Source: Bradyrhizobium sp. 149 (GTDB lineage Bacteria > Pseudomonadota > Alphaproteobacteria > Rhizobiales > Xanthobacteraceae). Taken from it: a DNA stretch of 64,000 nucleotides. This document shows positions 31,503-54,431 of the stretch, piece after piece. Within the stretch, counting starts at the first letter, position 1. Every line of letters starts with the position of its first letter. Made by a program: the position numbers and the translations under genes. The DNA is taken from the NCBI RefSeq assembly GCF_023073915.1, contig NZ_JADPKK010000013.1, positions 1 through 64,000 of the forward strand, read 5' to 3'. The notes under the pieces were generated by a model. That model saw nothing but the letters and a program-made list of their open reading frames with translations, did no database searches and had not been told where the DNA came from.

Positions 31503-32495
31503 CTAGCCGCTCGTCACCGTCGCACCATCCTCAAGATGACAAGCTACCCACTGCTCGCTTCCGGCCGCGCGCAATGTCGGCTCCTCGGCCCGGCAGCGAT
31601 CGAATACGTAGGGGCAACGGGTGTGGAAGCGGCACCCGCTGGGCGGATTGATCGGGCTCGGCACGTCTCCCTTGAGGATGATGGGATTGCGCTCAGCGCC
31701 GGGCTCGGGCAGCGGCACCGCCGAGAGCAGCGCCTTGGTGTAGGGATGCTTTGGCGCGGCGAAGATCTCGCGGCGGGGCGCCACCTCGACGATCTTGCCG
31801 AGATACATCACCGCGACGCGATGGGTCATGTGCTCGACGATCGCGAGGTCATGGCTGATGAACAGCAGCGCCAGGCCGAACTCGTTCTGGAGGTCCTGCA
31901 AGAGATTGACGATCTGTGCCTTGACCGAGACGTCGAGCGCCGAGACCGCCTCGTCGCAGACAATCAGCTCGGGCTCGGCGGCCAGCGCCCGCGCGATGCC
32001 GATGCGCTGGCGTTGGCCGCCGGAGAATTCGTGCGGCCTGCGGTTCAAAGCCTCGCGCGGCAGGCGCACGGTGTCCATCAGCGCCGTGACCCGGGTTTCG
32101 AGGTCGATCGCGGATTTGGCGAGGCCGAAATTGCGGATCGGCTCGGCCAGAATGTCGCGCACACGCATGCGCGGATTGAGGCTCGAGAACGGGTCCTGGA
32201 ACACCACCTGCACGCGGCGGCGCATCTGGCGCATCGTGGCCGGCGCCGCGTCGTCGATACGCTGGCCGTCGAGAATGACCTGCCCCGAGGTGATGTCGAA
32301 CAGGCGCAAAATGGCGCGGCCGACCGTCGACTTGCCGCAGCCGGATTCGCCGACCAGCGACAGCGTCTCGCCGCGCGCGATCTCGAACGACACGCCGTCC
32401 ACCGCATAGACCCATTCGGATCTGCGGCTGAACAGGCCCTTTTTGACCGGGAAGTGCTTTTTGAGGTCGTTGACCTGGAGCAGCGGGGGACTCAT
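31503..32495 (-). CDS. Peptide-type ABC transporter ATP-binding protein, DppF/OppF-like
   Basis: About 330 residues. Walker [16 protein letters not shown], signature [15 protein letters not shown] and Walker [15 protein letters not shown] are present. The C-terminal oligopeptide extension with a [14 protein letters not shown] cysteine motif, typical of Dpp/Opp ATPases, follows. Its start overlaps the stop of the upstream ATPase gene by four bases. It is the last gene of a five-gene importer operon (binding protein, two permeases, two ATPases) transcribed leftward. Confidence 0.92.
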
Positions 32496-33481
32496 GCCGC
32501 GACCGCTCCCTTGGCCGCATAGTGGCAGGCCGCGACGTGACGTGGCCCCTTCTCTTCGAGCCCCGGCGCGTACTGCCGGCAGAGATCGGTCGCGAGCGCG
32601 CAGCGACCGGCGAAGACGCAGCCGACGATGGGCTTGCGCAGATCAGGTACCTGCCCGGGGATTTCGGCCAGCCGTCTCGTGGTGCCGGTCAGCGACGAGC
32701 CGAGCCGCGGCACTGCGCCGAGCAGGCCCTGCGTATAGGGATGACGCGGCGAACGGAATAGTTCCGCCACCGGGGCCTCCTCGACCTTGCGGCCGGCATA
32801 CATGACCATGACGCGTTCGGCGATCTCGGCGACGACGCCGAGATCGTGGGTGATCAGGATGATCGCAGCACCAACCCGGTGCTTGAGATCAAGCATCAAT
32901 TTCAGGATCTGCGCCTGGATCGTCACGTCGAGCGCGGTGGTCGGCTCGTCGGCAATGAGAAGTTTTGGGTTGCAGGCGAGTGCAATGGCGATCATGACGC
33001 GCTGGCGCATGCCGCCGGAAAGCTGATGCGGATATTCGCGTACGCGACGCTTCGGCTCGGGAATGCCGACGAGGATCAGCATCTCGATCGCCTGCGCCTC
33101 GGCGGCCTGCTTGTCGAGGCCCTGGTGGATCATCAGCGTCTCGCGGATCTGACGGCCGACGGTCAGGACCGGATTGAGGCTGGTCATCGGCTCCTGAAAA
33201 ATCATCGAGATGTCGTTGCCGCGGATCGCGCGCATCTCGCGATCGGACAGTTGCAGCAGGTCCCTGCCCGCGAAGCGGATGCTGCCGGCGATCCTGCCGG
33301 GCGGCTCGGGGATCAGCCGCATCAGCGACATCGAGGTCACCGACTTGCCGCAGCCGGACTCGCCGACGATGGCGAGCGTCTCGCCCTCGTTGACATGGAA
33401 CGACACGCCTTCCACCGCGCGGTTGATGCCGCTGGGCGTGCGGAAGTGGGTTTGCAAATTCTCGACTTCGAGCAATGCCAT
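32492..33481 (-). CDS. Peptide-type ABC transporter ATP-binding protein, DppD-like
   Basis: About 329 residues. Walker [16 protein letters not shown], signature [15 protein letters not shown] and Walker [15 protein letters not shown] are present. The C-terminal domain contains [14 protein letters not shown], the cysteine cluster that in several DppD proteins binds an iron-sulfur cluster. It pairs with the DppF-like protein to power the permeases encoded just upstream. Confidence 0.92.
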
Positions 33482-33500
33482 CGCGATCAGCCCCTAGACA

Positions 33501-34424
33501 TCAGAGGCTCTTGGCCATGCGCGGGTCGAGCGCATCGCGAAGGCCATCGCCGAGCAGGTTCACGGCGAGCACAGTGACGGACAGAAAGGCCGCCGGAAAG
33601 AACACGATGTAGGGCTTGACCTGCCACAGCGCGCGGCCCTCGGCCATGATATTGCCCCAGGACGGAATGGTCGGCGGCGTGCCCGCGCCGATGAAGGACA
33701 GGATCGCCTCCGTGATCATCGCACTGGCGCAAATGTAAGTCGCCTGCACCAGCATCGGCGCCACCGTGTTGGGCAGGATGTGGCGCAGGATGATCATCGG
33801 TGTGCGCGTGCCGCAAGCCACCGCCGCATCCACGTAAGGCTGCTCGCGCAACGACAGCACGACGCTGCGCACGAGGCGCGAGACGCGCGGAATCTCAGCA
33901 ATAGTGATCGCGAGAATGACGTTGCCGACGCTGCCGCGCGTCAGCGCCATCAATGCGATCGCCAGCAGGATCGGCGGGATCGACATCAGGCCGTCCATGA
34001 AGCGCATCAAGATGCCGTCGGCCCAGCGGATGAAGCCGGAGACGATGCCGATGGCGAGACCGGCCGCGGAGGCGAATATCGCAACGGAGAGCCCGACCGT
34101 GAGCGAGACGCGCGCGCCAAACAGCACGCGCGAATAGATGTCGCGGCCGAGGACGTCGGTGCCGAACCAGTAAAGCTCAGACGGTGCGCGGGTCCGCTTG
34201 GCCGGCGCGAGTGCGGTCGGATCCACCGTTCCGAGATAAGGCGCAAAGATCGCGATCAGGACGAGCGTCAGCAACAACGTGCCGCCGATCGCAACGGTGG
34301 GATGGCCGCGCAGCAGTCCGATGAAGCCGCGCCGGATCGCGACCGGCCGGAGGATTTCGGGCAGCTGCGGCGCGAGGACGAAACCCGTTGGCAGCGTTTG
34401 CGGATTGACGGTCGTGTCGGTCAA
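33501..34424 (-). CDS. Peptide-type ABC transporter permease, DppC-like
   Basis: About 307 residues with six membrane segments and an N-terminal cytoplasmic lead. The DppC features are TDVLGRDIYSRVLFGARVSLTVG after the first helix and the coupling loop DAAVACGTRTPMIILRHILPN. It overlaps the DppB-like gene by four bases and forms the heterodimeric channel with it. Confidence 0.92.
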   Translation of the reverse strand: MTDTTVNPQTLPTGFVLAPQLPEILRPVAIRRGFIGLLRGHPTVAIGGTLLLTLVLIAIFAPYLGTVDPTALAPAKRTRAPSELYWFGTDVLGRDIYSRVLFGARVSLTVGLSVAIFASAAGLAIGIVSGFIRWADGILMRFMDGLMSIPPILLAIALMALTRGSVGNVILAITIAEIPRVSRLVRSVVLSLREQPYVDAAVACGTRTPMIILRHILPNTVAPMLVQATYICASAMITEAILSFIGAGTPPTIPSWGNIMAEGRALWQVKPYIVFFPAAFLSVTVLAVNLLGDGLRDALDPRMAKSL

Positions 34425-35362
34425 TAGCGGATCCTCGGGTCAACGAGCGTATAGATGACGTCGATCATCAGATTGACGAGGACGTAGACGAAGCTGAACA
34501 GCAGCACGATGCCCTGGATGACGGGATAATCGCGGCGTAGGATCGCGTCGATGGTGAGCCGGCCGAGGCCGGGAATGGCGAACACGCTTTCCGTGACGAC
34601 CGCGCCGCCGATCAGGAGCGCAATGCCGATCCCGATCACGGTGACGATCGGCACCGCCGCGTTCTTCAGCGCGTGGATGAACAGGACGCCGCCCTGCCCG
34701 AGGCCCTTGGCGCGCGCGGTGCGGATATAATCCTGCTGCAACACTTCGAGCATGGTGGCGCGCGTGATGCGCGCGACGAGCGCGATGTAGACACAGCCGA
34801 GTGCGACCGCCGGCAGGATCAGGTTTTGCAGCCAGGGCCAGACGCCCTGGGAAAGTGGCGTATAGCCCTGCACGGGAAGCCATTCGAGCTCCAGCGCGAA
34901 GACGTAGGCGAGGACATAACCCACGACGAAGACGGGCAGCGAGAACCCGAACACGGCGAACGCCATGATGGCGCGGTCGATGAAGCTGCCGGCCTTCCAC
35001 GCCGCTACCACGCCGAGCGGCACCGCGACCACGATCGTGAGCAGAAGCGTGATGATCATGAGCGACAGCGTCGGCCCCAAACGCTGCCCGATCATCGTCG
35101 AAACAGGCAGATTGGTGAAGATCGAGGTGCCGAGATCGCCATGCAGAATGCGCCAGACCCAGCTTCCGAACTGGATCAGGAAGGGCCGATCGAGGCCGAG
35201 GCTCTGACGGATGCGCTCCACATCCTCCGGGCTTGCCTGGTCGCCTGCGATCACCACGGCGGGATCCCCCGGCGCGATGTAGAGCAGACTGAACACGAAC
35301 AGCGCGACGATCGCCATCACTGGCAGGGTCGAGGCGATACGCCGGAGGATGTAGGAGAGCAT
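34421..35362 (-). CDS. Peptide-type ABC transporter permease, DppB-like
   Basis: About 313 residues and six membrane segments, with the N-terminal LRRIASTLPVMAIVALFVFSLLYIAPGDPA stretch of DppB (first segment, then a periplasmic PGDPA). The ATPase coupling loop reads DYIRTARAKGLGQG. The start at 35362 lies 17 bases after the binding-protein stop. Confidence 0.92.
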   Translation of the reverse strand: MLSYILRRIASTLPVMAIVALFVFSLLYIAPGDPAVVIAGDQASPEDVERIRQSLGLDRPFLIQFGSWVWRILHGDLGTSIFTNLPVSTMIGQRLGPTLSLMIITLLLTIVVAVPLGVVAAWKAGSFIDRAIMAFAVFGFSLPVFVVGYVLAYVFALELEWLPVQGYTPLSQGVWPWLQNLILPAVALGCVYIALVARITRATMLEVLQQDYIRTARAKGLGQGGVLFIHALKNAAVPIVTVIGIGIALLIGGAVVTESVFAIPGLGRLTIDAILRRDYPVIQGIVLLFSFVYVLVNLMIDVIYTLVDPRIRY

Positions 35363-35379: not shown

Positions 35380-36981
35380 TCATGCGGATTTCGACACGCC
35401 CCAGAAGAACGGCAGCGGCCCTTTCGTGATGCCGGTGACGTTCTTGCGCCAGGCGGTGTAGCTGAGGAAGAACCCGGTCGGCGCGTAGACGACGTCCTCG
35501 AGCGCGACCTTGTTGAGGCGAGCGACCGCGGCCTTCTCCTCTTCGAGGCCCTTGGCCTCGAACCAGGACGTGACCTCCTTTTCGGTGCCGGGGCTGTTCG
35601 GCCAGCCGAACCAGGCCTTGTCGCCGTTGGCGCGAATGGCGGTGTAGGGCGCCGGATTGATGCAGTCCGAACCCGCATGCCAGGTGTGGAACATGTTCCA
35701 GCCACCCTGTCCGGGCGGCGTCTTCTGCGCTCGGCGCGAGCCGACCGTACCCCAATCGGTCGCGACGAAGTCGACATTCATGCCGAGCTTCTTCAGCAGA
35801 TCCGCGGTCACATCGCCGAAGGCCTTGGTGATCGGCTGGTCCTGCGCCACCAGGCATGTCACGGGCTGGCCGGAATAACCGCTCTCGGCGAGCAGCTTCT
35901 TTGCAGCGTCGAGATCGCGCTTGCCCTTCAGGACCTCGCCGCCCGCTTCGGTGTAGAGCGGCGTGTCCGGTGTGAAGTAGCCGGGCAGCGGCTTCCACAG
36001 CGAATTGTCGTCGCCGACGAGCGCGCGCATATAGTCTTCCTGGCTCATGGCCATCAGCACCGCGCGCCGCGCCCGCACGTCGTTGAAGGGCGGATACAGG
36101 AAGTTCATGCGGAACGAACCGACATTGCCGAGCGGATCGCCGATATCGACGCTGATGTTCTTGTTCTTCTTCAGGACTGGGACGAGGTCCGCGATCGGGT
36201 TCTCCCACCAGTCGATCTCGCCGTTCTGCAACGCGGCCGCGGCGGTCGCCGGATCGGGCATCACGATCCATTCGACGCGGTCGATCAGCATCTGCTTGCC
36301 GCCGGCGAGCCACGACGCCTTCTCCTGCCGCGGCACATAGTCGGCGAACTTCTCGAACACGGCTTTCGCGCCGGGCACCCATTCGCCCTTGGCGAACTTC
36401 ATCGGGCCTGAGCCGACATAATCACCGATCTGCTTGAACGGGTCGGTCTGCGCAATGCGTTCCGGCATGATGAAGGCGCAAGGCGAATTGTTCTTGCCAA
36501 GCGCGTAAAGCATTTTCGGGAACGGCTGCTTCAGCACCCATTTGAAGGTGCGGTCGTCGACGGCCGTGAGCTCCTGCTGGTTCGCCTTGAGCATCAGGCC
36601 CATGGGATCGCGCGCAGCCCAGCGGTTGAGGCTCGCAACCACGTCCTTGCTCAGCACCGGCTCGCCGTCGTGGAATTTGAGCCCCGACCGCAATTTGAAT
36701 GTCCAAATGGTGCCATCGTCGGTCACTTCCTCGGACTCGACCATCTGCCGCTGCGGCTGGAGCGAGGAATCAACGCCGTAGAGCGTATCCCAAACCAGCG
36801 CGGCGGCATTGCGCACGACATATTGCGTGCCCCAGATCGGGTCGAAATTCGCAAGGTTCGCTTGCGGCACGAAGCGCAGGGTGCGCGCGGAGGCGCCTTG
36901 TGCGATCGCCGGCGCCGAGAGGCCGCTCAGTGCCAGACCGCCCGCGCCGGCCAGTCCCTTCAATACGGTCCTGCGATCCAT
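35380..36981 (-). CDS. Peptide-type ABC substrate-binding protein (SBP family 5), Tat-exported
   Basis: About 533 residues. The N-terminus MDRRTVLKGLAGAGGLALSG has a twin-arginine pattern and an AIA cleavage region near residue 27. The family-5 signature is seen in LRSGLKFHDGEPVLSKDV. The periplasmic protein delivers ligand to the four downstream gene products. Similar proteins bind dipeptides, glutathione, nickel or small heterocyclic compounds. Neighbouring hydantoin-type enzymes suggest a non-peptide ligand, but that is inference. Confidence 0.92.
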   Translation of the reverse strand: MDRRTVLKGLAGAGGLALSGLSAPAIAQGASARTLRFVPQANLANFDPIWGTQYVVRNAAALVWDTLYGVDSSLQPQRQMVESEEVTDDGTIWTFKLRSGLKFHDGEPVLSKDVVASLNRWAARDPMGLMLKANQQELTAVDDRTFKWVLKQPFPKMLYALGKNNSPCAFIMPERIAQTDPFKQIGDYVGSGPMKFAKGEWVPGAKAVFEKFADYVPRQEKASWLAGGKQMLIDRVEWIVMPDPATAAAALQNGEIDWWENPIADLVPVLKKNKNISVDIGDPLGNVGSFRMNFLYPPFNDVRARRAVLMAMSQEDYMRALVGDDNSLWKPLPGYFTPDTPLYTEAGGEVLKGKRDLDAAKKLLAESGYSGQPVTCLVAQDQPITKAFGDVTADLLKKLGMNVDFVATDWGTVGSRRAQKTPPGQGGWNMFHTWHAGSDCINPAPYTAIRANGDKAWFGWPNSPGTEKEVTSWFEAKGLEEEKAAVARLNKVALEDVVYAPTGFFLSYTAWRKNVTGITKGPLPFFWGVSKSA

Positions 36982-37122
36982 GAAATCCTCCCAATAGTGC
37001 CGTGATGCCGGCCATCGTTGGCCAAGAACAGGTGAAACCAGAGCTCATTGGCGTGCAAATGGTATGCCACTAACCGGACCTTCGCCAGCGGGATCTCGTC
37101 GTCATCTTCGCCGGTTTGGACC

Positions 37123-38793
37123 TCAAAGAACGGTTGCCAGCATCGGTTTGGCCTCGATATGCGGGATCGCCTCGACCAATTTGCGCGTGTAGTCCGTCTT
37201 CGGATTATCGAACAGCGCCCGGCTCTCGCCCTGCTCCACGATGGCGCCATTGCGCAGCACGATGGTGCGGTCGCAGAGCATACGCACCACGTTGAGATCG
37301 TGGCTGACGAACAGCAGCGCGATGTCGTTCTCGCGCCTGAGGCGATCGAGCAGTTGCAGCACCACCGCCTGCACCGAGACGTCGAGCGCGGCGGTCGGTT
37401 CGTCCAGCACCAGAAGTCGCGGCCGGCACGCAATGGCGCGGGCAATCCCGACGCGGGCCTTCTGGCCGCCGGAGAGCTGATGCGGAAAGCGCGGCAACAG
37501 ATCCAGCGGCAGCCCCACACGCTCGGCGCATTCCTCGACGCGCTGGCGCAGCGCGTCCCCCGCACGCATGCTATCCAGCCGCATCAAGGGATGGGCGATG
37601 CAGTCGAAGGCGGTGAAGCGCGGGTTGAGGCTCTCGTTCGGGTCCTGGAAGACCATCTGGATGTCTTTGCGGAAGCGCGAGCGGTGAAAGTCGCGCGACG
37701 CCACATGGCCGATCGACTGCCCGTCGAACACGATGTCGCCTTCGCTCGGATCGATCAGGCGGCAGATCATCCGCGACGTCGTGCTCTTGCCGGACCCGGA
37801 TTCGCCGACGAGCCCGACGCTCTCGCCGCCGGCCATCGTCATGGAGAAGTCCGCCACCGCCGCGGCGCCCTGGTCGAAGCGTTTTGCGAGATTGCGCGCC
37901 TCCAGCAGCGGCGGAGTCCCATGGGCGGGCTCTTGCCTCGGCCTGTTGACAACCGCCGCGTAGCCTTCCCTCTCCTCTTCCGTCACGAGGTCTTCGATGC
38001 GGGACGTTGCCGTGGGCGATGCCGCGACTAGGCGCCTGGTATAGGCGTGCTGCGGCGCGCTGAAGAGCGTCCTCGGGCTCGCCTCCTCGACGATGCGGCC
38101 GCGCTCCATCACCGCGATACGGCCACAATATCGCGCCGCTAACCCGAGATCGTGCGTGATCAGGATCGTCGCCATGCCGCGGGCGGCGGCAATCTCCGCC
38201 AGCAGGTCCATCACCACCTTCTGCGTGGTGACGTCGAGCCCCGTCGTCGGCTCGTCGGCGATCAACAGCGCGGGATTGCAGGAAATCGCGATCGCGATCA
38301 TGACGCGCTGGCACATGCCGCCCGAGAGCTCGTGCGGATAGGCGTTCATCCGCGTTTCAGGGTCTCGGATCTGAACGGCGCGCAACAGCTCCAGCGCCTC
38401 GGCGCGCGCGGCGTCTTTCGATATCCGCTTGTGAGTGAGGATTGCGTCCGCGATCTGCAGGCCGATCGCGCGGATCGGATTGAGCGCTGCCCGCGGGTTC
38501 TGGAAGATCATCGACATCGCGGCGCCCTGGAGGTGACGAAGGTCGTCACCCCTGAGCTTCGTCACATCCTGCCCGCGAAACAGGATCTTGCCGCCGGTGA
38601 TGCGCCCGGCTGCGTCGAGCAGCCGCGTCGTGGCAAAGCCGGTGACCGATTTGCCGGAACCGCTCTCGCCGACGAGGCCGAGCATCTCGCCGGCCTTGAC
38701 AGTGATCGTGACCCCGCGCACGGCCTCGACTATCCCGCGCCGCGTCGAGAACGAGACGTGGAGATCCTCGATCCCTAGGAGTTCCTCGCTCAT
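37123..38793 (-). CDS. Fused two-domain peptide-type ABC ATPase (YejF/GsiA-like)
   Basis: About 556 residues with two complete ATPase domains. The first has GESGSGKSVTGF, LSGGMCQRVMIA and [14 protein letters not shown]; the second has GESGSGKSTTSRM, LSGGQKARVGIARA and LLVLDEPTAALDVS. Both halves look catalytically intact. It replaces the separate DppD/DppF pair of the neighbouring importer and serves the second transporter encoded at 38790-42317. The start overlaps the permease stop by four bases. Confidence 0.92.
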   Translation of the reverse strand: MSEELLGIEDLHVSFSTRRGIVEAVRGVTITVKAGEMLGLVGESGSGKSVTGFATTRLLDAAGRITGGKILFRGQDVTKLRGDDLRHLQGAAMSMIFQNPRAALNPIRAIGLQIADAILTHKRISKDAARAEALELLRAVQIRDPETRMNAYPHELSGGMCQRVMIAIAISCNPALLIADEPTTGLDVTTQKVVMDLLAEIAAARGMATILITHDLGLAARYCGRIAVMERGRIVEEASPRTLFSAPQHAYTRRLVAASPTATSRIEDLVTEEEREGYAAVVNRPRQEPAHGTPPLLEARNLAKRFDQGAAAVADFSMTMAGGESVGLVGESGSGKSTTSRMICRLIDPSEGDIVFDGQSIGHVASRDFHRSRFRKDIQMVFQDPNESLNPRFTAFDCIAHPLMRLDSMRAGDALRQRVEECAERVGLPLDLLPRFPHQLSGGQKARVGIARAIACRPRLLVLDEPTAALDVSVQAVVLQLLDRLRRENDIALLFVSHDLNVVRMLCDRTIVLRNGAIVEQGESRALFDNPKTDYTRKLVEAIPHIEAKPMLATVL

Positions 38794-39638
38794 GTGCGCA
38801 TGCGCGGGTCGAGAATGTCCCGCATCCCGTCACCGAGAAGGTTGAAGCACAGCACGGCCATCATCAACGCGAGGCCGGGAAAGGCCACCAGCCACCACCG
38901 CCCGGTCGAGATGAAGCGCGCGCCTTCCGCGACCATGATGCCCCATTCCGGCGTCGGCGGCTTGACGCCAAGACCGATGAAGGACAGGCCGGCTGCGTTG
39001 AGAATAGCCCAGCCGAGATTGAGCGAGATCTGCACTGCCATCGCCGGCAGGATGTTCGGGAGCAGGAAGCGCAGCACCACCGAGAAATGGCTCTCGCCGC
39101 AGGCGCGCGCCGCCTCCACCCAGCCGACATTGCGCCGGACATTGACCTCGGCGCGCGCGAAACGGATGTAGAAGGGAAGATTGATGATCGCGGTCGCGAT
39201 TACGATGTTCTCGATCCGGTTGCCGAGAGCCGCGACCATCGCCATCGCCAGCACGAACAGCGGAAAGGCCATCATGACGTCGACGAAGCGGCCGACCGCG
39301 CGGTCGAGCCTGCCGCCGGCATAGCCGCAGAAGGAGCCTACGACGGCGCCGATCACGAAGGAGATGCCGACCGCCGAGACCGCGATGGCAAGATCGAGCC
39401 GGGCCGCAACGACGAGGCGGCTGAACACGTCGCGCCCGAGCTGGTCCGTGCCAGCGAGATGCGCCGCGCTCGGCGGCTGTAGCGCCTCCGAGACATTGGA
39501 GACGACGGGATCATAGGGCACGAGCCACGGCCCGAAGATCGCGATCAGGACAAACAGCAGGACACCGGCCGCGGCGACACCGGTCAGCGGGTTGCCGCGC
39601 AAAATCCAGACCGAATGGCGGAGGGTTGCGCTGGTCAT
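38790..39638 (-). CDS. Peptide-type ABC transporter permease, DppC-like (second system)
   Basis: About 282 residues and six membrane segments. It has TDQLGRDVFSRLVVAARLD after the first helix and the coupling loop EAARACGESHFSVVLRFLLPN. The start at 39638 was chosen because it overlaps the upstream permease stop as ATGA; the long frame before it is arginine-rich and not membrane-like. It forms the channel with the DppB-like product of 39635-40669. Confidence 0.9.
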   Translation of the reverse strand: MTSATLRHSVWILRGNPLTGVAAAGVLLFVLIAIFGPWLVPYDPVVSNVSEALQPPSAAHLAGTDQLGRDVFSRLVVAARLDLAIAVSAVGISFVIGAVVGSFCGYAGGRLDRAVGRFVDVMMAFPLFVLAMAMVAALGNRIENIVIATAIINLPFYIRFARAEVNVRRNVGWVEAARACGESHFSVVLRFLLPNILPAMAVQISLNLGWAILNAAGLSFIGLGVKPPTPEWGIMVAEGARFISTGRWWLVAFPGLALMMAVLCFNLLGDGMRDILDPRMRT

Positions 39639-43872: not shown

Positions 43873-44618
43873 GCCGCGAGCCAGCCTCCGTCGACCGCCA
43901 TCACGGTGCCGGTCGTGAAGGACGACGCATCGCTGGCGAGATGCAGCGCCGTCTGCGCGATCTCCTCGGCCTCGCCGAACCGCTTCATGGCATGGCGATT
44001 GCGGGAGGCTTCGCGCACCTCGTCCGCATTGGCGTGACGGGCAAAGCTGCGGCGAAGCATCGGCGTGTCGATCGCACCGGGTGCAATCGCGTTGACGCGG
44101 ATGCCGTCGGTCGCGAAATCCACCGCCATCGTCCGGGTCAGGCTGACGATCGCGCCCTTGGCGGCGATATAGGCGCTGTTGCCCTTGCCGCCGGCCAGGG
44201 CGAGCTGCGAGGCCAGCGTGATGATCGAACCGCTCTTCTGTCGCTGCATGTGCGGCACGGCGGCGCGCGCCCACAGCCAGGTGCCGCCGACATTGGTGCG
44301 GAACACCGCGTCCCAATCGGCGGGGTCCGTCGTCAGCACCGTGCCGCCGCAGGAAAAGCCTGCGGCCGTCATCAGGATATCGAGCCGGCCGTGCCGCGCG
44401 ATCACCGCGCCGACAACGGTCTCTGCGAAAACGGCATCGCCGACATCGCCAACATGCGTCATCGCCTCGCCCACCAGGCCCAGCGTCTCCTGAAGCCCTG
44501 CGGCATCGCAATCGACCAGAGCGAGACGCGCGCCCTCGTCTGCAAACAGCTTTGCGCTGGCACGGCCGATGCCGGAAGCTGCTCCCGTGATGATGGCCGT
44601 GCGCCCCTGGAGCCGCAT
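43869..44618 (-). CDS. Short-chain dehydrogenase/reductase
   Basis: About 249 residues, classical SDR length. The cofactor motif is GAASGIGRASAKLF, with an acidic residue after strand two (VDCD) favouring NAD(H). The catalytic tetrad is seen as the Ser in LASQLALAGGKGNSAYIAAKG and the Tyr/Lys of YIAAK. The epimerase-like gene ends one base before this gene's coding region on the same strand. It probably oxidises an alcohol or reduces a ketone intermediate of the island's pathway. Confidence 0.9.
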   Translation of the reverse strand: MRLQGRTAIITGAASGIGRASAKLFADEGARLALVDCDAAGLQETLGLVGEAMTHVGDVGDAVFAETVVGAVIARHGRLDILMTAAGFSCGGTVLTTDPADWDAVFRTNVGGTWLWARAAVPHMQRQKSGSIITLASQLALAGGKGNSAYIAAKGAIVSLTRTMAVDFATDGIRVNAIAPGAIDTPMLRRSFARHANADEVREASRNRHAMKRFGEAEEIAQTALHLASDASSFTTGTVMAVDGGWLAA

Positions 44619-47136: not shown

Positions 47137-47799
47137 ATGTCCCGACCGCGCATTCTCGTCATCAACCCAAATTCCAACCCTGCTGTCACGCAGGGGCTGG
47201 AGGAGGCGCTGAAGCCGCTCGGTTTCGAGGGCGGGCCGGAACTGGTCTGCCAGACGCTGGCCGAAGGTCCGTTCGGCATTGAAAGCCAGGCCGATGTCGA
47301 TAGCGTCGCGATGCCGCTGCGCCGGCTGGTCGAAGGCGACAACAGCTCGGCCGCCTTTGTCATCGCCTGCTACAGCGATCCCGGGCTTAAGGTCTGCCGC
47401 GAAGGCACCGATCGCCCCGTGTTCGGCATCGCCGAGTGCGGCGTGCTGACCGCACTGGCCCGCGCCGAAACCTTTGGCGTCATCGCGATCGCCCAACGCT
47501 CGATCCCGCGTCACATGCGCTATCTCAGGCAGATGGGACTGACCGAACGCCTCGCCGGCGAGCGGCCGCTCAACATGAGCGTCGCGGAAACCGCCTCGGG
47601 TGAAGGCACCCTGGCCAAAATGATCGACATCGGCCGCGCGCTGCGCGACGAGGACGGCGCCCGCGCCATTGTGATGGGCTGCGCCGGCATGGCGCGCCAT
47701 CGCCGTCCCCTGGAAGACGCGCTCGGCATTGCCGTGATCGACCCGACACAGGCGGCCGTCACCATGGCGCTGGGTACGGTGCAGTTCTCTAATCACTAG
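47137..47799 (+). CDS. Hydantoin racemase/Asp-Glu racemase family
   Basis: About 220 residues, two-domain Asp/Glu racemase fold. The two catalytic cysteines are Cys78 in IACYSDPG and Cys182 in VMGCAGMARH, the positions and contexts of hydantoin racemases. The N-terminus ILVINPNSNPAVT is also characteristic. It is the only plus-strand gene in the island, with a short divergent promoter region facing the hydantoinase and a stop codon (CTAG palindrome) shared with the flavin-reductase gene. It would interconvert D- and L-5-substituted hydantoins so that both can be processed. Confidence 0.88.
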   Translation: MSRPRILVINPNSNPAVTQGLEEALKPLGFEGGPELVCQTLAEGPFGIESQADVDSVAMPLRRLVEGDNSSAAFVIACYSDPGLKVCREGTDRPVFGIAECGVLTALARAETFGVIAIAQRSIPRHMRYLRQMGLTERLAGERPLNMSVAETASGEGTLAKMIDIGRALRDEDGARAIVMGCAGMARHRRPLEDALGIAVIDPTQAAVTMALGTVQFSNH

Positions 47800-48464
47800 G
47801 CGTCCTTCAGCTCTTTGGCATTCTGCCGCGCGAGCCACTGTGCGTGGTTCTCGCGCGAAAGCGCGAACGTATCCCGCTGCGTCGTATAGAGATTGCCGAA
47901 CATGCGGCCGATCGGCCGGTAGGCGTCGAGGTCGACATACATGTTCGCCTCGTCGACGAGACCCTCGCGAGCGTGAACCCTGAGGACTTCGCCGACCAGC
48001 AGTTCGCGATCAGGCGAGAAGGTCAGCACGACGTGGCGCCGGCATTCGAGCGCGAAGGGGGCTGCAGCGAGGCGCGGCACCTTCACGTCGACCGACGCGA
48101 GCGTGGCGAGTCCCGTTGCCGCAACCTCGCTGTCACCGGAGGGAAAATCGACCGCGCAATCATTCATCACCGCCGACAGCGCCTCGTCCACCATGTGAAC
48201 GACGAACTCCCCGTCACGATGGATGTTGCGGGTGGTGTCCTTCGGGCTGTGATCCGGCTTGTGCTGAAGCCCGAGCACGATCAGCGCCGGACTCTCCGAG
48301 AACACGTTGAAGAAGCTGAACGGCGCGGCGTTGACGGCCCCGTTCGCATCGAGCGTTGTCACCAGCGCGATCGGCCGTGGCACCACCACGCCGCAAAGCA
48401 GCTTGTAGCGATCGCGCGGATCGAGCTCGCGCAAAGAAATGCCCAATTTGCCCTTGTCCGGCAT
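47796..48464 (-). CDS. Flavin reductase-like (FMN-binding split barrel) protein
   Basis: About 222 residues. The FMN-binding split-barrel signature VVVPRPIALVTTLDANGAVNAAPFSFFNV and SPALIVLGLQ mark the flavin-reductase-like family. It would supply reduced flavin to a two-component monooxygenase or act alone as an NAD(P)H:flavin reductase. The start at 48464 lies six bases past the carbamoylase stop. The neighbouring oxygenase at 42436 has its own FAD and NADPH sites, so the partner is uncertain. Confidence 0.87.
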   Translation of the reverse strand: MPDKGKLGISLRELDPRDRYKLLCGVVVPRPIALVTTLDANGAVNAAPFSFFNVFSESPALIVLGLQHKPDHSPKDTTRNIHRDGEFVVHMVDEALSAVMNDCAVDFPSGDSEVAATGLATLASVDVKVPRLAAAPFALECRRHVVLTFSPDRELLVGEVLRVHAREGLVDEANMYVDLDAYRPIGRMFGNLYTTQRDTFALSRENHAQWLARQNAKELKDA

Positions 48465-48469: not shown

Positions 48470-49402
48470 TCACTTCTCCGGCGGCGGCACTGCGCCGGTT
48501 TGGCTGGTGATCAGGCCATAGTGCTCGATGCGGCGGTGCTGCGCGAAATTGAAGATCGTGGACTTGCCGAATGTGGTGGCGTCGAGGTCGCAAGGATGGA
48601 CCAGCAATTCGTCCTCCTCCGTCTTCGCTTCGGCGACAATTTCGCCATTGGGATCGACGATCAGGCTGCCACCAAACAGCGGATGTCCATCCTCGACGCC
48701 GGCCTTGGCCACCGCGACGACCCAGGTCGCGTTCTGATAGGCGCCGGCCTGCACCGAGAGGCGGTTGTGAAACAGGCGTTTCTCGACGCCCTCCTCGCTC
48801 TTCTCCGCGTTGACGGACGGCGTGTTGTAGCCGATCAGCACCATCTCGACGCCCTGCAAGCCCATCACGCGATAGGTTTCGGGCCAGCGCCGGTCGTTGC
48901 AGACGGCCATGCCGATGATACCGCCCAGTTCGCGCCAGACCTTGAAGCCGAGATCGCCCGGCTCGAAATAGCGCTTCTCCAGATGCTGGTGCGAGCGCTT
49001 GGTGTCGCATTCCATATGGCCGGGCAAATGGATCTTGCGATATTTTCCGACGATCTTGCCGGATTTATCGGTGAGGATTGCAGTGTTGAAATGATGCCCG
49101 TCCGGCGTCAGCTCCGCATAGCCAAAATTCATCGCCATCTGATGCTGCGACGCGCGCTCGAACAGCGGCTTTGTCGCCGCGTTGGGCATCTCGCGCTCGA
49201 ACCAGATGTCGAACTCGGCCCGGTCCTCCACGTACCAGCGCGGGAAGAAGGTCGTGAGAGCCAGTTCCGGATAGACGATCAGGTCGGCGCCCCTGCCTTT
49301 GGCCTCGTCCATCAGCGCAATCATGCGCTTGACCACCGCCTCGCGGCTGTCGGCTTTCTGGATCGGGCCCATCTGGGCGGCGGCCACATTGACGATACGC
49401 AT
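48470..49402 (-). CDS. N-carbamoyl-D-amino-acid hydrolase (nitrilase superfamily)
   Basis: About 310 residues, full length. The nitrilase triad is Glu46 in VYPELAL, Lys123 in GKYRKIHLPG and Cys168 in AVCNDRRWPE. The LALTTFFPRWY stretch is characteristic of D-carbamoylases. It removes the carbamoyl group, giving the amino acid, ammonia and CO2, which is the step after hydantoinase. Together with the racemase and hydantoinase it completes the known hydantoin-to-amino-acid set. It is in the HyuA-led operon. L-specific carbamoylases belong to another family (M20), so D-specificity is the natural call. Confidence 0.9.
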   Translation of the reverse strand: MRIVNVAAAQMGPIQKADSREAVVKRMIALMDEAKGRGADLIVYPELALTTFFPRWYVEDRAEFDIWFEREMPNAATKPLFERASQHQMAMNFGYAELTPDGHHFNTAILTDKSGKIVGKYRKIHLPGHMECDTKRSHQHLEKRYFEPGDLGFKVWRELGGIIGMAVCNDRRWPETYRVMGLQGVEMVLIGYNTPSVNAEKSEEGVEKRLFHNRLSVQAGAYQNATWVVAVAKAGVEDGHPLFGGSLIVDPNGEIVAEAKTEEDELLVHPCDLDATTFGKSTIFNFAQHRRIEHYGLITSQTGAVPPPEK

Positions 49403-49538: not shown

Positions 49539-50834
49539 TCATTTCTGCTCCGCATCGGCGACATCGAGGCCATAGTCGAGTGCAGCCAGAAGCTGCTCGG
49601 CCTCATGCTCGGAGATCACGAGTGGCGGTGCCAGGAACAGCGAGGTCTGCTCGCCGCTGGTCCCGATCACGGCGCCAGCCTCCAGCGCCCGGTCCGCCAC
49701 CCGCGAGGCGATCGGCACTTCGGTGGTGTCGGCATGCCAGTTGCGCCAATCCGGGCCGTGCAGTTCCACCGTCCAGTGCAACCCCTGTCCCGCCACGCGC
49801 TGCACGCTCGGATGCTTTTGCGCGATGGCGAGCAGGCGTCGGGTGAACAGCTTTTCGAGGCTCTTCACGTGTTCCAGAATGTTGTCTTCGTTGACGACCT
49901 TCAGATAGGCGCTGACGGCGGCCATGCTGATGGGATGCCCGCGCAGCGTGCCGTAATTCTGCCAGCTCGCGCCCTTGAGCCGCTCGACGACGTCTTTCGA
50001 CACGACGACCGCGGCGACCGCAGCCGCGCCGCCGCCGAGCGATTTTCCGAGCGTCACGATGTCGGGCCGGCTCTCGGCTCCCTGGAACGCAAACCAGCGC
50101 CCGGCGCGGCCCGCACCAGTAACCACTTCGTCGGCGATCCAGTAGGAGCCGGCTTGGCGAGCGCAACGGGCTACCTCGTCTTGATAGGCGCCGTCGTAAT
50201 AGATGCCGCCCTGCGTGTAGTCGATGATCGTCGCCGCGGTATCCGAAAGCAGGTGCGTGGCATCGGCCAGATACTCGCTCGGGGGAACATTGTTGACCGG
50301 CGCGCCATAGATCGCGCCGTCCGGTGCCGGCAAGATTCGCACCGGCGCCATCGACGCCGGCCGCTGCGAGCCGCCGGCATGCACCGCAAGGCCGCCATGC
50401 CATTGCGGCTGCACCGTCATGCTGCGCGACAGGCCCGTGATGCCGTGATAGGCGCGCTCGCGCGTCGCCAGCGCGGAGCGTTGCGTCAGCGCCTGGCACA
50501 GCGACAGCGCCATGTCGTTGGCCTCGCTGCCGCTGATGCAGAAGCGCACCGCGCCAACCCAATCCTCTTCGCCACTGAACGCGGTCGCCATCAAATCGTC
50601 GGCAGCCTGCTCGCGGCCGACCCAGGTCCACCCCTCGTTCACGACCGGCGTATCGGCGGCGCGGCGGATCGCCTCCACCATCGCGGGATGACGATGTCCG
50701 AGACCGCCGCCGGTGTTGCTGCCGTCGATGAGCTTGCGACCATCTGACAGATGGAAATAGACGCCCTCGCCGCCGACCACGGCCATCGGCGCGCCGTCGC
50801 CGGCATTCAGCCCGGTTCGCAACAATCTGCTCAT
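49539..50834 (-). CDS. Class III PLP-dependent aminotransferase
   Basis: About 431 residues. The PLP lysine is in VTLGKSLGGG, the PLP-ring aspartate in YWIADEVVTGAGR, and the phosphate-binding GSEAND motif lies near 100. Glutamate-1-semialdehyde aminomutase-like and omega-amino-acid transaminases belong here. It probably removes the amino group of the product made by the carbamoylase. It is followed by the carbamoylase gene with a 136-base gap. The substrate could be an amino acid, beta-amino acid or amine. Confidence 0.9.
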   Translation of the reverse strand: MSRLLRTGLNAGDGAPMAVVGGEGVYFHLSDGRKLIDGSNTGGGLGHRHPAMVEAIRRAADTPVVNEGWTWVGREQAADDLMATAFSGEEDWVGAVRFCISGSEANDMALSLCQALTQRSALATRERAYHGITGLSRSMTVQPQWHGGLAVHAGGSQRPASMAPVRILPAPDGAIYGAPVNNVPPSEYLADATHLLSDTAATIIDYTQGGIYYDGAYQDEVARCARQAGSYWIADEVVTGAGRAGRWFAFQGAESRPDIVTLGKSLGGGAAAVAAVVVSKDVVERLKGASWQNYGTLRGHPISMAAVSAYLKVVNEDNILEHVKSLEKLFTRRLLAIAQKHPSVQRVAGQGLHWTVELHGPDWRNWHADTTEVPIASRVADRALEAGAVIGTSGEQTSLFLAPPLVISEHEAEQLLAALDYGLDVADAEQK

Positions 50835-50844: not shown

Positions 50845-52425
50845 TCATTCCGCGGCCCCGACGCCGTAGCCGCCGCCGCCGCAGGTCTCGATCGTGACGA
50901 GATCGCCTTGCTGCAGCACCAAATTCGACTTGCCGTCGATCGCGATGTTAGCGCCCTGCCGGATCAATGAGATGCGGCAGGTCTTGCCGGATTCGCCGCC
51001 CTGCATCCCGAACGGCGCAATCACCATGCGCTCGATACAGGTGGTCAGGTGCATCGACGGTGCCAGGATGCGATAGCTACGAATAACGCCATCACCACCG
51101 CGATGCGCGCCCGCGCCGCCGGACTGCCAGCGAATGGCCTGTTGCTCGACGCGGATCGCGTAGCTCGCCTCAATTACTTCGATCGGCGTGTTCGAGGTGT
51201 TGGACAGATGCACCCGAGTCGCCGAGATGCCGGCCCGATCATGCCGTGCGCCTTCGCCACCACCGTGAACCTCGTAGAGCATCTTCCATGATCCGTTTTG
51301 CCGCGGCTCGGCAAAGAACAGGACGCCCGCTGTGGTCGCCCCACCGGCCGACAATCGTTCGGGAATAGTGTCCTGCATCGCGCGAAAAATCGCATCGACG
51401 ATGCGCATGGAGGTCTCGTGGTTGCCGGCAGCGACAGATGCGTTCCAGCCCGGCTCCAGGATCGAACCCGGACGCGTGATGATGGTCAGCGGCCGCAGCG
51501 CGCCGGCGTTCTGGTGCATGTCGCGCCCGCTCATGATGCGCGCGGCATAGGCCACCGCCGAGCGCGCCATGAAGGGCGTCGTGTTGCAGAAATTCGACAC
51601 GCGGTCGCAGCTTCCCGAAAGATCGAAGGTCGCTTCGTCGCCTGCAATGGTGATCTTGACATGAATGCGCGCAGGCGCGTCGTTGACGCCGCCGTCGTCC
51701 AGATAATCCTCGCCCTCGTAGACACCGTCGGGCAGATCGCGCAACGCATCGCGCATCTCGATCTCGGAGAGATCGTGCAGGCGCGACTGCGCCGCCGTGA
51801 AGACCGCCTTGCCGTGCTCGCGGCAAAGCTCGACGATGCGCCGCTCGCCGGCTTTCGTTGCCGCGATCTGGGCGAGAAGATCGCCTTCGCAGGATTGGGG
51901 ATCGCGAACATTGGCCTTGAGCAGCTGCACGATCGGCGTATTGACGCCGGCCGCTGTGGCGATCAGAACCGGCGGAATGCGCATCGCCTCCTGGAAGGTG
52001 TCGATCGCTTTGGCAAAATAGCTGCCGGGCCATGTGCCGCCGATATCGGGCCAGTGTGCGAGGCTGACCGCGAACGCCACGATCTCGCCGTCGACGAAGA
52101 CGGGGCGCACGACCTTGACGTCATTGAGATGATTGCCGCCGAGCGGGCCGACATTGTAGATCAGTGCGTCGCCCTCGTTCAGGCCGTCGCGCGGCACCAC
52201 TTTCAGCAATTCGGGGACCGTATAGGCCATCGCGCCGAGATGAATCGGGATGTCGCGGCCCTGGCCGACCAGATCGCCGCGGCCATCCGTGATCGCCGAC
52301 GACAGATCGCCGGCCTCACGCAGCAGCGGCGAGCGCGCCGACCGCGTCATCACCAGGCTCATCTCCTCGGCCGCGGCCGAGAGCCCGTGCCGGATGACTT
52401 CGACGACGAACGGATCGAGCTTCAT
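50845..52425 (-). CDS. hyuB: HyuB: ATP-dependent hydantoinase/oxoprolinase B subunit
   Basis: About 526 residues, the small-subunit length of the hydantoinase B/oxoprolinase family. The family stretch SLVMTRSARSPLLREAGDLSSAI and the glycine-rich GGSYGVGAAE-like end (here CGGGGYGVGAAE) are recognisable. It pairs with the HyuA protein, whose gene overlaps this start by four bases as ATGA. Together they hydrolyse cyclic amides with ATP, as N-methylhydantoinase and 5-oxoprolinase do. Acetone carboxylase is related but needs a third subunit, which is not seen. Confidence 0.92.
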   Translation of the reverse strand: MKLDPFVVEVIRHGLSAAAEEMSLVMTRSARSPLLREAGDLSSAITDGRGDLVGQGRDIPIHLGAMAYTVPELLKVVPRDGLNEGDALIYNVGPLGGNHLNDVKVVRPVFVDGEIVAFAVSLAHWPDIGGTWPGSYFAKAIDTFQEAMRIPPVLIATAAGVNTPIVQLLKANVRDPQSCEGDLLAQIAATKAGERRIVELCREHGKAVFTAAQSRLHDLSEIEMRDALRDLPDGVYEGEDYLDDGGVNDAPARIHVKITIAGDEATFDLSGSCDRVSNFCNTTPFMARSAVAYAARIMSGRDMHQNAGALRPLTIITRPGSILEPGWNASVAAGNHETSMRIVDAIFRAMQDTIPERLSAGGATTAGVLFFAEPRQNGSWKMLYEVHGGGEGARHDRAGISATRVHLSNTSNTPIEVIEASYAIRVEQQAIRWQSGGAGAHRGGDGVIRSYRILAPSMHLTTCIERMVIAPFGMQGGESGKTCRISLIRQGANIAIDGKSNLVLQQGDLVTIETCGGGGYGVGAAE

Positions 52426-54431
52426 GCGACCCCCCGCGTCAGGAACAGATTGCCTGAAGCATCCGGCCTCGCCTGCCAGCCGGGCGGGACCACGACCGTT
52501 GACCAAGCATCTTCGATGATGGCTGGGCCGCTGACGGTTTCGGTCAGCGAGGCACGGTCGATGATCGCCGTTTCGATCTCGTGGAAACCGTCGAACGAGC
52601 AGATGCGCTTGCCGGTGGATATCGTCCTGGCCGCTGTGGCCAGCCGGCTCACGACGGTGCTCGACGGGCGGCGAGCCTGCACCCGCACGGATTCGATGAC
52701 GCAGCTCTCGCTTGTCGCATAACCGAACAGCTCGTGGTGTCGCGTCAGAAAATCCTTTTTCAGCCTGATGACGTCGAGCGGCCGCGCGAACGGCACCGGA
52801 ATAGCGTCGTTCTGCGCCGCGTAGCGCATCAGGGCCACCAACTCGACCTGAATTTCAGCTGTGGCAACGCCGTTGGCGATGAGCGGGGCCGAAGCATCGT
52901 CAATCAGCGCTCCGATCCGCTCGGACACACGGGCGAGATCGATGCGATCAAGCGCAGCGCGCAGGGTCTGCTGCTCGAGGAAGCTGAAGTCGGCTGTGAG
53001 ACAGCCCAGCGCTGAAAACGCGCTTGATGCGCTGGGAACCACGACCTCCGCGATCCCGTAGAGATCGGCAAGGCCCGCGGCGTGCATCGGGCCACCTCCG
53101 CCAAAGGCGAGCAGCGTGCAGTCGCGCCCGTCGATGCCGCGCTCGACGGTGACACGGCGGAGCGCGCGGGCCATCGTCGCATTCGCGACCTTGATGATGC
53201 CGAGCGCGGTTTCGGTCAGGCTCAGCCCCAAGCTGCGCGGGATCGGCGCGATGACATCGATCGCTGCCTTGATGTCGATTCCGATCCGGTCGCCGAGCCT
53301 GGTTTCAGGATTGAGATAGCCGAGCACGGCGTTGGCGTCGGTGATGGTCGGCTCGGTACCGCCGCGGCCGTAGCAGGCCGGTCCCGGCTCGGAGCCAGCG
53401 CTCTCCGGCCCAACCGTCAAGCCACCCGGGCCGTTGCGCACGATCGATCCACCACCCGCCCCGATCGAATGAACCGCGAGCATCGGCTGGCGCAGCGGCT
53501 TGTCGCCAAGCATGCGGCCGTCGGTCATCTCGGCCTGGCCGTCCACGATCAGGCACACGTCGGTCGTGGTGCCGCCCATGTCGAACGTCAGCATCCGCGA
53601 GGTGCCGAGCTGACGCGCGATGCTGACCGACGCCGAGACGCCGGCCGCCGGGCCCGACATCGCCATCACCAGCGGCCGCCGCTTCACGGCCGAGATCGGG
53701 ATCATGGCGCCTGCCGAATGAAACACCTGCAGCCCGGGGCCGATCGGCAGCCACTGCTCCAGCTCGCTGAGATACTCTACCGCGATCGGCATCGCGGCCG
53801 CGTTGAACACGGTCGCCGAGGTCCGCTCGTATTCGCGCGCCTCGGGATTGACTTCGTGCGACAGCGAGACGTGGGCAATGACGCCCTTGAGGCGCTCGCC
53901 GAGCATTTTCTCGTGCACGGGATTGGCATAGGCGTGAAGCAGTGCGACCGCGACGCTCTGAACGCCCGTCGTTTTCAGCCATGCCACCAGACGCTCGATC
54001 TCCGCTTCGTCCAGCGCCTTCAGCACCTGCCCCTCGTGATCGAGGCGCTCGGCAAGCCCGAAGCATCGTTCAGGCGGCACCAGGGGCGGCGATTTCGGCG
54101 GGATGTCGAGACGATAGAGATCGCGGCGGCGATAGCGCGCGATCTCCAGCACGTCGGCAAATCCTTCGGTCGCGACCAGCGCCACTTTCGGCAGCCGTCC
54201 TTCGACGATCGCGTTGGTCACGCGCGTGGTGCCGTGGACGAAGCGCTTGACCTCGCTCTTGCGCAGTCCGACCGCCTCGATCGCCTCAAGCATCGCCTGA
54301 ACCGGAGCCTGCGGTCGCGATGGCACTTTCGCGATCCGTGCCTCCGCGGGGAAGCGCCGGATGGCGATGATGTCGGTGAAGGTACCGCCGATATCGGTGC
54401 CGACTTCCCAGTGGTTTTCGTCAGTGCTCAT
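52422..54431 (-). CDS. hyuA: HyuA: ATP-dependent hydantoinase/oxoprolinase A subunit
   Basis: About 669 residues. The ASKHA-type nucleotide motifs are seen: phosphate-1 GTDIGGTFTDIIAI at the N-terminus, TFDMGGTTTDVCLI near 285, and FGGGGPMHAAG in the C-terminal half. It binds ATP and phosphorylates the cyclic amide for hydrolysis by the AB complex. It is the first gene of the leftward operon hyuA-hyuB-aminotransferase-carbamoylase-flavin reductase. The 490 bases upstream contain no gene and an inverted repeat at 54586-54600. Confidence 0.93.
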   Translation of the reverse strand: MSTDENHWEVGTDIGGTFTDIIAIRRFPAEARIAKVPSRPQAPVQAMLEAIEAVGLRKSEVKRFVHGTTRVTNAIVEGRLPKVALVATEGFADVLEIARYRRRDLYRLDIPPKSPPLVPPERCFGLAERLDHEGQVLKALDEAEIERLVAWLKTTGVQSVAVALLHAYANPVHEKMLGERLKGVIAHVSLSHEVNPEAREYERTSATVFNAAAMPIAVEYLSELEQWLPIGPGLQVFHSAGAMIPISAVKRRPLVMAMSGPAAGVSASVSIARQLGTSRMLTFDMGGTTTDVCLIVDGQAEMTDGRMLGDKPLRQPMLAVHSIGAGGGSIVRNGPGGLTVGPESAGSEPGPACYGRGGTEPTITDANAVLGYLNPETRLGDRIGIDIKAAIDVIAPIPRSLGLSLTETALGIIKVANATMARALRRVTVERGIDGRDCTLLAFGGGGPMHAAGLADLYGIAEVVVPSASSAFSALGCLTADFSFLEQQTLRAALDRIDLARVSERIGALIDDASAPLIANGVATAEIQVELVALMRYAAQNDAIPVPFARPLDVIRLKKDFLTRHHELFGYATSESCVIESVRVQARRPSSTVVSRLATAARTISTGKRICSFDGFHEIETAIIDRASLTETVSGPAIIEDAWSTVVVPPGWQARPDASGNLFLTRGVA

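Follow-up and report, generated by a model that had tools for sequence, protein, structure and literature searches.

A conserved, modular Bradyrhizobium gene island with ATP-independent and ATP-dependent hydantoinase-type systems and two importers headed by sigma-54 promoter-like elements

We have analysed a gene island located between positions 31503 and 54431 of a 64,000-nt stretch of DNA from Bradyrhizobium sp. 149 (hereafter the window), in which an ATP-independent hydantoinase and the ATP-dependent HyuA/HyuB system lie together with two ABC importers. A sigma-54 promoter-like element heads each of the two importers and is conserved in relatives, which is the new observation of this analysis. 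The reading that we favour, and hold with moderate confidence, is that the island is a nitrogen-scavenging system for cyclic ureides and lactams, composed of three catabolic modules and two cognate importers.

Open reading frames (ORFs) and their comparison with Pfam, NCBIfam and the PDB placed gene boundaries at both ends of the island, and details of the individual features are presented in Table 1. In the order of transcription on the minus strand, the genes encode HyuA, HyuB, a class III aminotransferase (AT3), a D-carbamoylase (DCAR), a flavin-reductase-like protein (FRED), a hydantoinase (HYD), an extended short-chain dehydrogenase of the NAD-epimerase type (EPI), a classical short-chain dehydrogenase (SDR), an FMO-like flavoprotein (FMO), importer 1 and importer 2, the binding proteins of the last two being SBP1 and SBP2. 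The racemase (RAC) is the sole plus-strand gene of the island; it lies between FRED and HYD, overlaps the end of FRED and diverges from HYD across a gap of 56 bases. By coordinates the gaps along HYD, EPI, SDR and FMO are 16, 1 and -4 bp, and the spacing as a whole suggests transcription units running from HyuA to FRED and from HYD to FMO, with importer 1 and importer 2 each forming a unit of its own. The ORFs called over this span (31503-54431) include none that we recognised as a regulator gene.

Alignment of gene-upstream regions from the islands revealed a conserved block before SBP1 which reads as a sigma-54 -24/-12 element. The strict pattern TGGCR-N6-TTGCW has only two matches in the 64-kb window (0.70 expected), both just upstream of SBP1 and SBP2, and 13 matches in the whole genome as compared to 5 for a reversed control. 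The strict element is present in 60 of 82 SBP1-type upstream regions and a relaxed form in 7 more, some genomes being counted twice in this set (e.g. L038/L107, L039/L099 and L071/L125). All 17 of the selected SBP1 regions matched within 200 bp, the high conservation of the core being partly built into this comparison because the rows were chosen by a pattern requiring the core; L054 (no match) and L056 (relaxed match) lie outside the selection. The SBP1 element is retained in FMO-module loci without an orthologous hydantoinase, where its flanking bases have diverged. For SBP2, the arrangement TGGCATACC-N2-TTGCA is found in five of seven upstream regions, and the two without it are relatives of 41% identity. 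A sigma-54-like site scoring 15/16 about 319 bp before HyuA was rejected as not conserved, such a score being reached within 450 bp in 3 of 49 relatives. Conserved blocks common to 15 aligned islands are present upstream of HyuA (54432-54681, minus strand); they show no sigma-54 match and are possibly another promoter or operator.

Both importers could be related to a published RpoN study. PMC13207237 (2026) compared wild-type Bradyrhizobium sp. DOA9 with rpoN mutants under microaerobic, nitrogen-free conditions, and its Table 1 gives predicted RpoNc sites which, according to its authors, closely match differentially expressed genes. Orthologs of both importer binding proteins are in that table: dppE (BRADOA9_v1_42073) with the site TGGCATACCATTTGC at -73, and yddS (BRADOA9_v1_42069) with TGGGGGAATCGCTGT at -121. 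The dppE site occurs once in the DOA9 record, 73 bp upstream of the gene orthologous to SBP2 (91% identity), so that both site and spacing are those of the window; the yddS site is found 121 bp upstream of the counterpart of SBP1 (L095). The published yddS site (L095:20014-20028) overlaps the 3' end of FMO, and a far better element, TGGCGCGCAACTTGCT, is located at about -69 by our script count. The text of PMC13207237 describes yddS as down in the rpoN mutants, although two table entries bear that name; the available passages name dppE and yddS as peptide or glutathione transporters (yddS under glutathione), and 'hydantoin' does not occur in the main text. Since the two importers of the window carry the same element type and the published RpoN site predictions cover both orthologs, at least importers 1 and 2 are probably co-regulated.

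Relatives of the island were collected with AT3 as bait, giving 79 named loci (from a listing of at most 80), a set which over-represents islands with AT3; absence means here that a gene was not found in the examined stretch at the thresholds of our scripts. The same gene set, for which the first-pass annotation had suggested a search in other genomes, was found there: HyuAB, AT3, DCAR, HYD and FMO occur together in 49 of the 79 listed loci, and the loci closest by AT3 are from Bradyrhizobium. An acyl-CoA ligase lies near AT3 in 33 of these 49 complete islands, and 16 are without it, as is the island of the window. Twelve listed loci carry HyuAB-AT3 without DCAR, orthologous HYD and FMO, 15 are without HyuAB at 40% identity or more (L142 and L152 among them have a more distant HyuAB near AT3), and three are partial: the contig of L116 is short, FMO is missing from L119 and HYD from L129. 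HyuAB and the AT3 family are together, at 40% identity or more, in 64 of the 79. One record of the set, L107 (JAUEPE010000001.1), is titled Frankia sp. RB7 and carries a Bradyrhizobium-type island at 93% identity; it is probably mislabelled.

A less biased view is provided by a genus sample of 26 genomes. Orthologs of HYD (at least 87% identity) were found in 14 of them, of FMO (at least 72%) in 13 and of HyuA (at least 82%) in 9; all 13 genomes with the FMO ortholog have HYD, and all 9 with the HyuA ortholog have both HYD and FMO. Among the 59 HyuA-like rows of the sample, a hydantoinase-family gene (E of 1e-80 or lower) lies within 25 kb in 8 of 9 island orthologs versus 1 of 50 other rows, this one flanking an island (G683); the neighbours were read by eye from coordinates, and many assemblies are drafts, in which genes from separate contigs were scored as non-neighbours. 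Adjacency of the two ring-opening systems is thus not the rule in this genus; the first-pass annotation had called it unusual to find both of them next to oxygenases. Nor is their meeting a chance event, since the same gene order recurs in tens of loci.

The island is a mosaic, each enzyme set of which is also found without the others and with its own importer. The hydantoin set (module 1: HYD, DCAR and RAC with importer 2) is represented by L157, where DCAR, HYD and importer 2 are the only members in the examined stretch, by L158 and L160 and likewise L045, which lack HyuAB and have importer 2 ahead of DCAR, and by G685, where the HYD ortholog adjoins importer 2 on another contig than the remainder of the island, which is without HYD (L156, L163). 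HyuAB and AT3 (module 2) occur without the hydantoin set in 12 loci from Bradyrhizobium, Tardiphaga, Chelatococcus, Pseudodonghicola, Albibacillus, Ottowia and Bordetella ansorpii; an importer-1-type binding protein is present in 11 of these 12, the twelfth (L153) being a short contig. For the flavoprotein set (module 3: FMO, SDR and EPI with importer 1), we fetched 23 of 29 matches to FMO of at least 62% identity in other genomes, and the set occurs without orthologous HYD in L047-L052, L054-L056 and L068. A hydantoinase-family gene is nevertheless present in 19 of the 23 loci, as orthologous HYD in 13 and as a gene of 45-48% identity in 6; four of these six are opposite in strand to FMO. The stretches of L055 and L056 contain relatives of RAC and HYD, and L055 also has, among its neighbours, a D-amino-acid transaminase that exceeds its NCBIfam cut-off.

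This modularity bears on the idea, raised by the first-pass annotation, that a larger or oxidised nitrogen heterocycle is the substrate, which in its strictest form would mean one dedicated pathway whose enzymes all work successively on one such compound, which needs both openers and an oxygenase. We hold this to be unlikely. The complete set in 49 of the listed loci, the tight spacing from HYD to FMO, and the company of HYD and FMO with every HyuA ortholog and of HYD with every FMO ortholog in the genus sample speak for it. Each module, however, stands elsewhere without the others and with its own importer: L045, L158 and L160 are without HyuAB-AT3 and keep the rest, whereas Bradyrhizobium L122, L124 and L126 have HyuAB-AT3 and no DCAR, orthologous HYD or FMO in the stretch. 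Moreover, L119, an otherwise similar island, is without FMO, no FRED was found in the hydantoin clusters L046, L053 and L060, and the nearest solved relative of FRED (4z85) is a 2-nitrobenzoate nitroreductase; nothing here requires a larger or oxidised heterocycle.

The hydantoinase, racemase and nitrilase-type D-carbamoylase named in the first-pass annotation are all present according to the NCBIfam, Pfam and PDB matches, and their motifs are intact. HYD passes the NCBIfam cut-offs of TIGR02033 (648 bits versus 393) and PRK13404 (784 versus 647), and its HxH, K, H, H and D positions, which we take to be metal-binding, align with those of 1nfg. The top PDB matches of DCAR are N-carbamoyl-D-amino-acid hydrolases, with 6lei aligned over the length of DCAR (403 bits, E 7e-120); CNDRRW and KYRKIH are common to both and PELALTTF nearly so, the Glu, Lys and Cys of these motifs presumably being catalytic. 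The best PDB match of RAC, 3qvj, is a putative hydantoin racemase, and both cysteine motifs (IACYSDPG and MGCAGMA) are aligned. Because the family of HYD covers both activities, HYD could instead be a dihydropyrimidinase in vivo, converting dihydrouracil-type compounds from plant or nodule into N-carbamoyl-beta-amino acids and beta-amino acids, with AT3 as a beta-amino-acid aminotransferase. We regard this as rather doubtful, since a hydantoin racemase and a D-carbamoylase suit 5-substituted hydantoins better and the best PDB matches of AT3, 5g2p and 5g09, are transaminases and are not labelled as beta-alanine enzymes.

Both importers are complete by Pfam. In a tree of binding proteins, those linked to FMO form a clade near the HyuAB-linked ones, with support of 92/99 that is just under the starred level of the tool, and SBP2 stands apart. 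No other protein of genome G026 matches SBP1 as well as the importer-1-type binding proteins of its HyuAB module (62% identical) and its FMO module (80%), the next match being at 42%. In the own genome of the window, a second hydantoinase-like gene directly adjoins an SBP1-type gene on contig C17, and on contig C2 (L175, 190000-206378) an AtzE-family amidase (757 bits versus a cut-off of 426) follows an importer-1-type ABC operon, which makes a second nitrogen locus of the cyclic-ureide or carboxybiuret type possible. From these two neighbours and the contexts of the modules, it follows that the importer-1-type family keeps company with cyclic-amide and ureide hydrolases.

The enzymes of module 3 are less clearly characterised. 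In the family alignment, FMO has two dinucleotide-binding motifs of the GxGxxG/A type (VIGAGQSG and VIGAGASA). The FMO fingerprint is of the FxGxxxH type; no such fingerprint was found between the two dinucleotide sites of the window protein, and AHS or AHT stands there in some distant relatives. As a single sequence FMO gave no PDB match at E 0.001, a profile search gave weak matches to oxidoreductases and monooxygenases, and the AlphaFold model (mean pLDDT 51) was too poor. EPI had no NCBIfam model above cut-off among the matches listed. The gene content given in the first-pass annotation stands for HyuA/HyuB, the aminotransferase, the flavin reductase and the two importers and is modified in two points: one of its 'reductases' is an extended SDR, and its 'monooxygenase' is a flavoprotein without a clear FMO signature, for which that name is a label and catalysis is putative, judged from sequence. 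A YUCCA-like (auxin) role for FMO was dropped as being without support, and so was glycoside or apionate chemistry, for which the hint had been an OiaX-like RuBisCO neighbour in L050, below its cut-off.

Separability of the modules could also be taken to mean that unrelated catabolic units have come together by descent, with no functional link between them. This seems improbable to us, since hydantoinase-family genes recur beside module 3 as non-orthologous copies (6 of 23), and since the same type of promoter element is present on both importers, whose orthologs are both among the published predicted RpoN sites.

In module 2, the top PDB matches of AT3 (5g2p and 5g09, both labelled transaminase) are, we presume, (S)-selective amine transaminases; an identification of AT3 as an amino-lactam racemase was dropped (96 bits versus 175 for transaminases). 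In the non-Bradyrhizobium loci L073 (10323-10706), L130, L138, L142, L145 and L147, the gene after AT3 encodes a small protein (121-153 residues by ORF); that of L073 matches Pfam Lumazine_bd_2, and the window has no room for such an ORF after AT3. HyuA is closest in the PDB to the N-methylhydantoinase 7hk5 and next to 6yra, labelled 5-oxoprolinase, which we take to be the caprolactamase entry. The HyuA translation retains the ATP motifs DIGGTFTD, DMGGT and GSEPGP (GxxPGP), and the CapB metal ligands D41, H99, D102 and H124 align with D, H, D and H in HyuB; the roles of these residues are described in passages of PMC8453981, the abstract of which gives D101 where the passages give D102. We consider least probable of all that HyuAB is an acetophenone-carboxylase-like ketone carboxylase acting on the ketone formed by AT3 from an amine, with a CoA ligase and a thiolase cleaving the product: an acyl-CoA ligase does lie near HyuAB-AT3 in 43 of the 64 listed loci with HyuAB, and L138 and L071 have thiolases close to the module, but HyuA and HyuB are nearer to N-methylhydantoinase and caprolactamase than to carboxylases in the NCBIfam and PDB comparisons (acetone and acetophenone carboxylases scoring lower), no extra carboxylase subunit genes were recognised, and the window is without the ligase.

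Returning to nitrogen scavenging from cyclic ureides and lactams, we infer the substrates, the order of the reactions, how the modules cooperate and precisely what chemistry module 3 performs as follows. In module 1, importer 2, which may carry hydantoin-like compounds, would take up a 5-substituted hydantoin or a dihydropyrimidine-like ring, the zinc-type HYD would open it, and DCAR would cleave the carbamoyl product to an amino acid, CO2 and NH3, RAC supplying the usable enantiomer. In module 2, HyuA/HyuB may open a ring amide (lactam-, imide- or ureide-like) with ATP and AT3 may transaminate the amino group so freed; in most relatives the acyl-CoA ligase would then pass the carbon skeleton to CoA metabolism. 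In module 3, FMO, SDR and EPI, served by importer 1, which may carry related cyclic amides, would oxidise or reduce the imported compound or its products, possibly the same compounds on which the other modules act. Since both importers have RpoN promoter elements, uptake by both would be expected to rise in nitrogen shortage.

More tentatively, the island may be the physiological home of the hydantoinase/D-carbamoylase pair, that is, a system driven by RpoN with which Bradyrhizobium, both free-living and in nodules, scavenges nitrogen. Cyclic ureides or lactams derived from plant, nodule or soil would enter through the two sigma-54 importers, the ATP-independent and ATP-dependent openers would work in parallel, so that even rings whose stability defeats the zinc enzyme could be opened, and the flavoprotein, SDR and epimerase together with the aminotransferase would strip the remaining nitrogen.

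Several points weigh against a nitrogen-scavenging role of the island as a unit. We know of no substrate or enzyme activity for any island gene. The island is not one operon, since RAC is opposite in strand to the remaining genes, and the divergent RAC together with several gaps implies more than one transcript. In the window, no element scoring 15/16 or more was found in the 300 bp preceding HyuA, HYD, RAC or DCAR, and none of the 49 relatives has a score of 15 or more within 450 bp before HYD, DCAR or AT3; because sigma-54 elements head the importers only, the enzyme genes may be controlled differently from them. The element is also missing in 15 of the 82 SBP1-type regions (12 HyuAB-linked importers, L054 of module 3, L174 and L175), the Table 1 sites of PMC13207237 are predictions, and no island enzyme gene is named in its available passages. 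At the level of single enzymes, DCAR is above no NCBIfam cut-off (best AguB, 131 versus 410; no D-carbamoylase model among the 11 matches listed), and HyuA and HyuB, at 424.5 and 234.5, are far under the cut-offs of 1000 of the NCBIfam equivalogs for caprolactamase CapAB. Finally, four of the 23 module-3 loci (L047, L050, L054 and L068, the last a contig of 12.5 kb) are without a hydantoinase-family gene in the fetched stretch, and modularity also fits the co-residence of unrelated catabolic units.

Parts of the gene set have been described earlier. The order of the hydantoin core is known since 2012, when Engel et al. (PMC3546935) described D-carbamoylase and hydantoinase genes of Bradyrhizobium BTAi1 and ORS278 that are separated by a racemase of opposite orientation, D-carbamoylase coming before hydantoinase as in our island; at the racemase position USDA 110 has two hypothetical genes. 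The section on hyu clusters in that paper makes no mention of the HyuAB-aminotransferase and FMO-SDR-epimerase modules, of the two importers or of sigma-54 control. Module 2 appears analogous to caprolactamase and omega-aminotransferase in the caprolactam pathway of Pseudomonas jessenii (PMC6061476, PMC8453981), where the HyuAB-type CapAB is clustered with an omega-aminotransferase and whose metal and ATP residues are kept in the island. The island differs from that pathway in scores far below the CapA and CapB cut-offs, in the lack of a recognisable aldehyde dehydrogenase among the genes of the window set, in the acyl-CoA ligase of many relatives and in the importer type. In Pseudomonas sp. 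NS671, according to passages of PMC8453981, HyuAB opens 5-substituted hydantoins with ATP and HyuC cleaves the carbamoyl amino acid, whereas the island has a nitrilase-type DCAR and an ATP-independent hydantoinase beside HyuAB. The statement of the first-pass annotation that no described pathway has exactly this set is upheld for the whole, of which no description was found among the open-licence literature matches listed, and fails for parts of it, such as the hydantoin core; taken together, what it observed in the sequence is confirmed and its interpretation is partly supported.

On one side the island adjoins a further cluster (17127-31300), which has a FAD-binding aromatic hydroxylase and a LysR regulator on the minus strand and an amidohydrolase, a 3-hydroxyisobutyrate-type dehydrogenase, a dioxygenase, a FAD-linked oxidase, a sugar-type ABC importer and a YCII protein on the plus strand. 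An intradiol (catechol-type) dioxygenase at 24139-25022 on the plus strand is broken into two reading frames, the first ORF matching positions 3-90 of Dioxygenase_C and the second 108-165, apparently through a frameshift or an error in the assembly. Upstream of HyuA (54922-58724, minus strand) are a PepSY-TM protein and a TonB-dependent siderophore receptor, which stand beside the island in several Bradyrhizobium loci.

Table 1. Genes and promoter-like elements of the island, with positions in the window.
Feature	Position	Strand	Basis
HyuA, ATP-dependent hydantoinase/oxoprolinase subunit A	52422..54431	-	Pfam Hydantoinase_A 275 bits, Hydant_A_N
HyuB, subunit B, metal site	50845..52425	-	Pfam Hydantoinase_B 550 bits
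AT3, class III aminotransferase	49539..50834	-	Pfam Aminotran_3; best PDB 5g2p, 5g09
DCAR, D-carbamoylase, nitrilase superfamily	48470..49402	-	Pfam CN_hydrolase; best PDB 6lei
FRED, flavin-reductase-like protein	47796..48464	-	Pfam Flavin_Reduct; best PDB 4z85
RAC, hydantoin racemase	47137..47799	+	Pfam Asp_Glu_race PF01177 178 bits; PDB 3qvj
HYD, D-hydantoinase/dihydropyrimidinase	45611..47080	-	NCBIfam above cut-off; PDB 1nfg D-hydantoinase
EPI, extended SDR, NAD-dependent epimerase/dehydratase family	44620..45594	-	Pfam Epimerase 148 bits
SDR, classical short-chain dehydrogenase	43869..44618	-	adh_short_C2 207 bits
FMO-like flavoprotein	42436..43872	-	Pfam Pyr_redox_3, Lys_Orn_oxgnase (scanned as longer ORF)
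Sigma-54 (-24/-12) element, importer 1	42370..42385	-	TGGCGCGCGACTTGCT, 53 bp upstream of SBP1
SBP1, importer 1 substrate-binding protein	40698..42317	-	SBP_bac_5 294 bits
Importer 1 permease B	39635..40669	-	BPD_transp_1
Importer 1 permease C (start inferred)	38790..39638	-	BPD_transp_1
Importer 1 dual ATPase	37123..38793	-	two ABC_tran stretches
Sigma-54 (-24/-12) element, importer 2	37054..37069	-	TGGCATACCATTTGCA, 73 bp upstream of SBP2
SBP2, importer 2 substrate-binding protein	35380..36981	-	SBP_bac_5 231 bits
Importer 2 permease B	34421..35362	-	BPD_transp_1
Importer 2 permease C	33501..34424	-	BPD_transp_1
Importer 2 ATPase	32492..33481	-	ABC_tran, oligo_HPY
Importer 2 ATPase	31503..32495	-	ABC_tran, oligo_HPY

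Hydantoinases are industrial enzymes. Their natural function is described as unclear in passages of PMC3546935; it becomes testable with this conserved island, whose ligand-binding proteins are predicted and whose likely inducer is nitrogen limitation acting via RpoN. The company of HyuAB and AT3 in so many of the listed loci further suggests that alpha- and betaproteobacteria have an amide-opening pathway not yet characterised.

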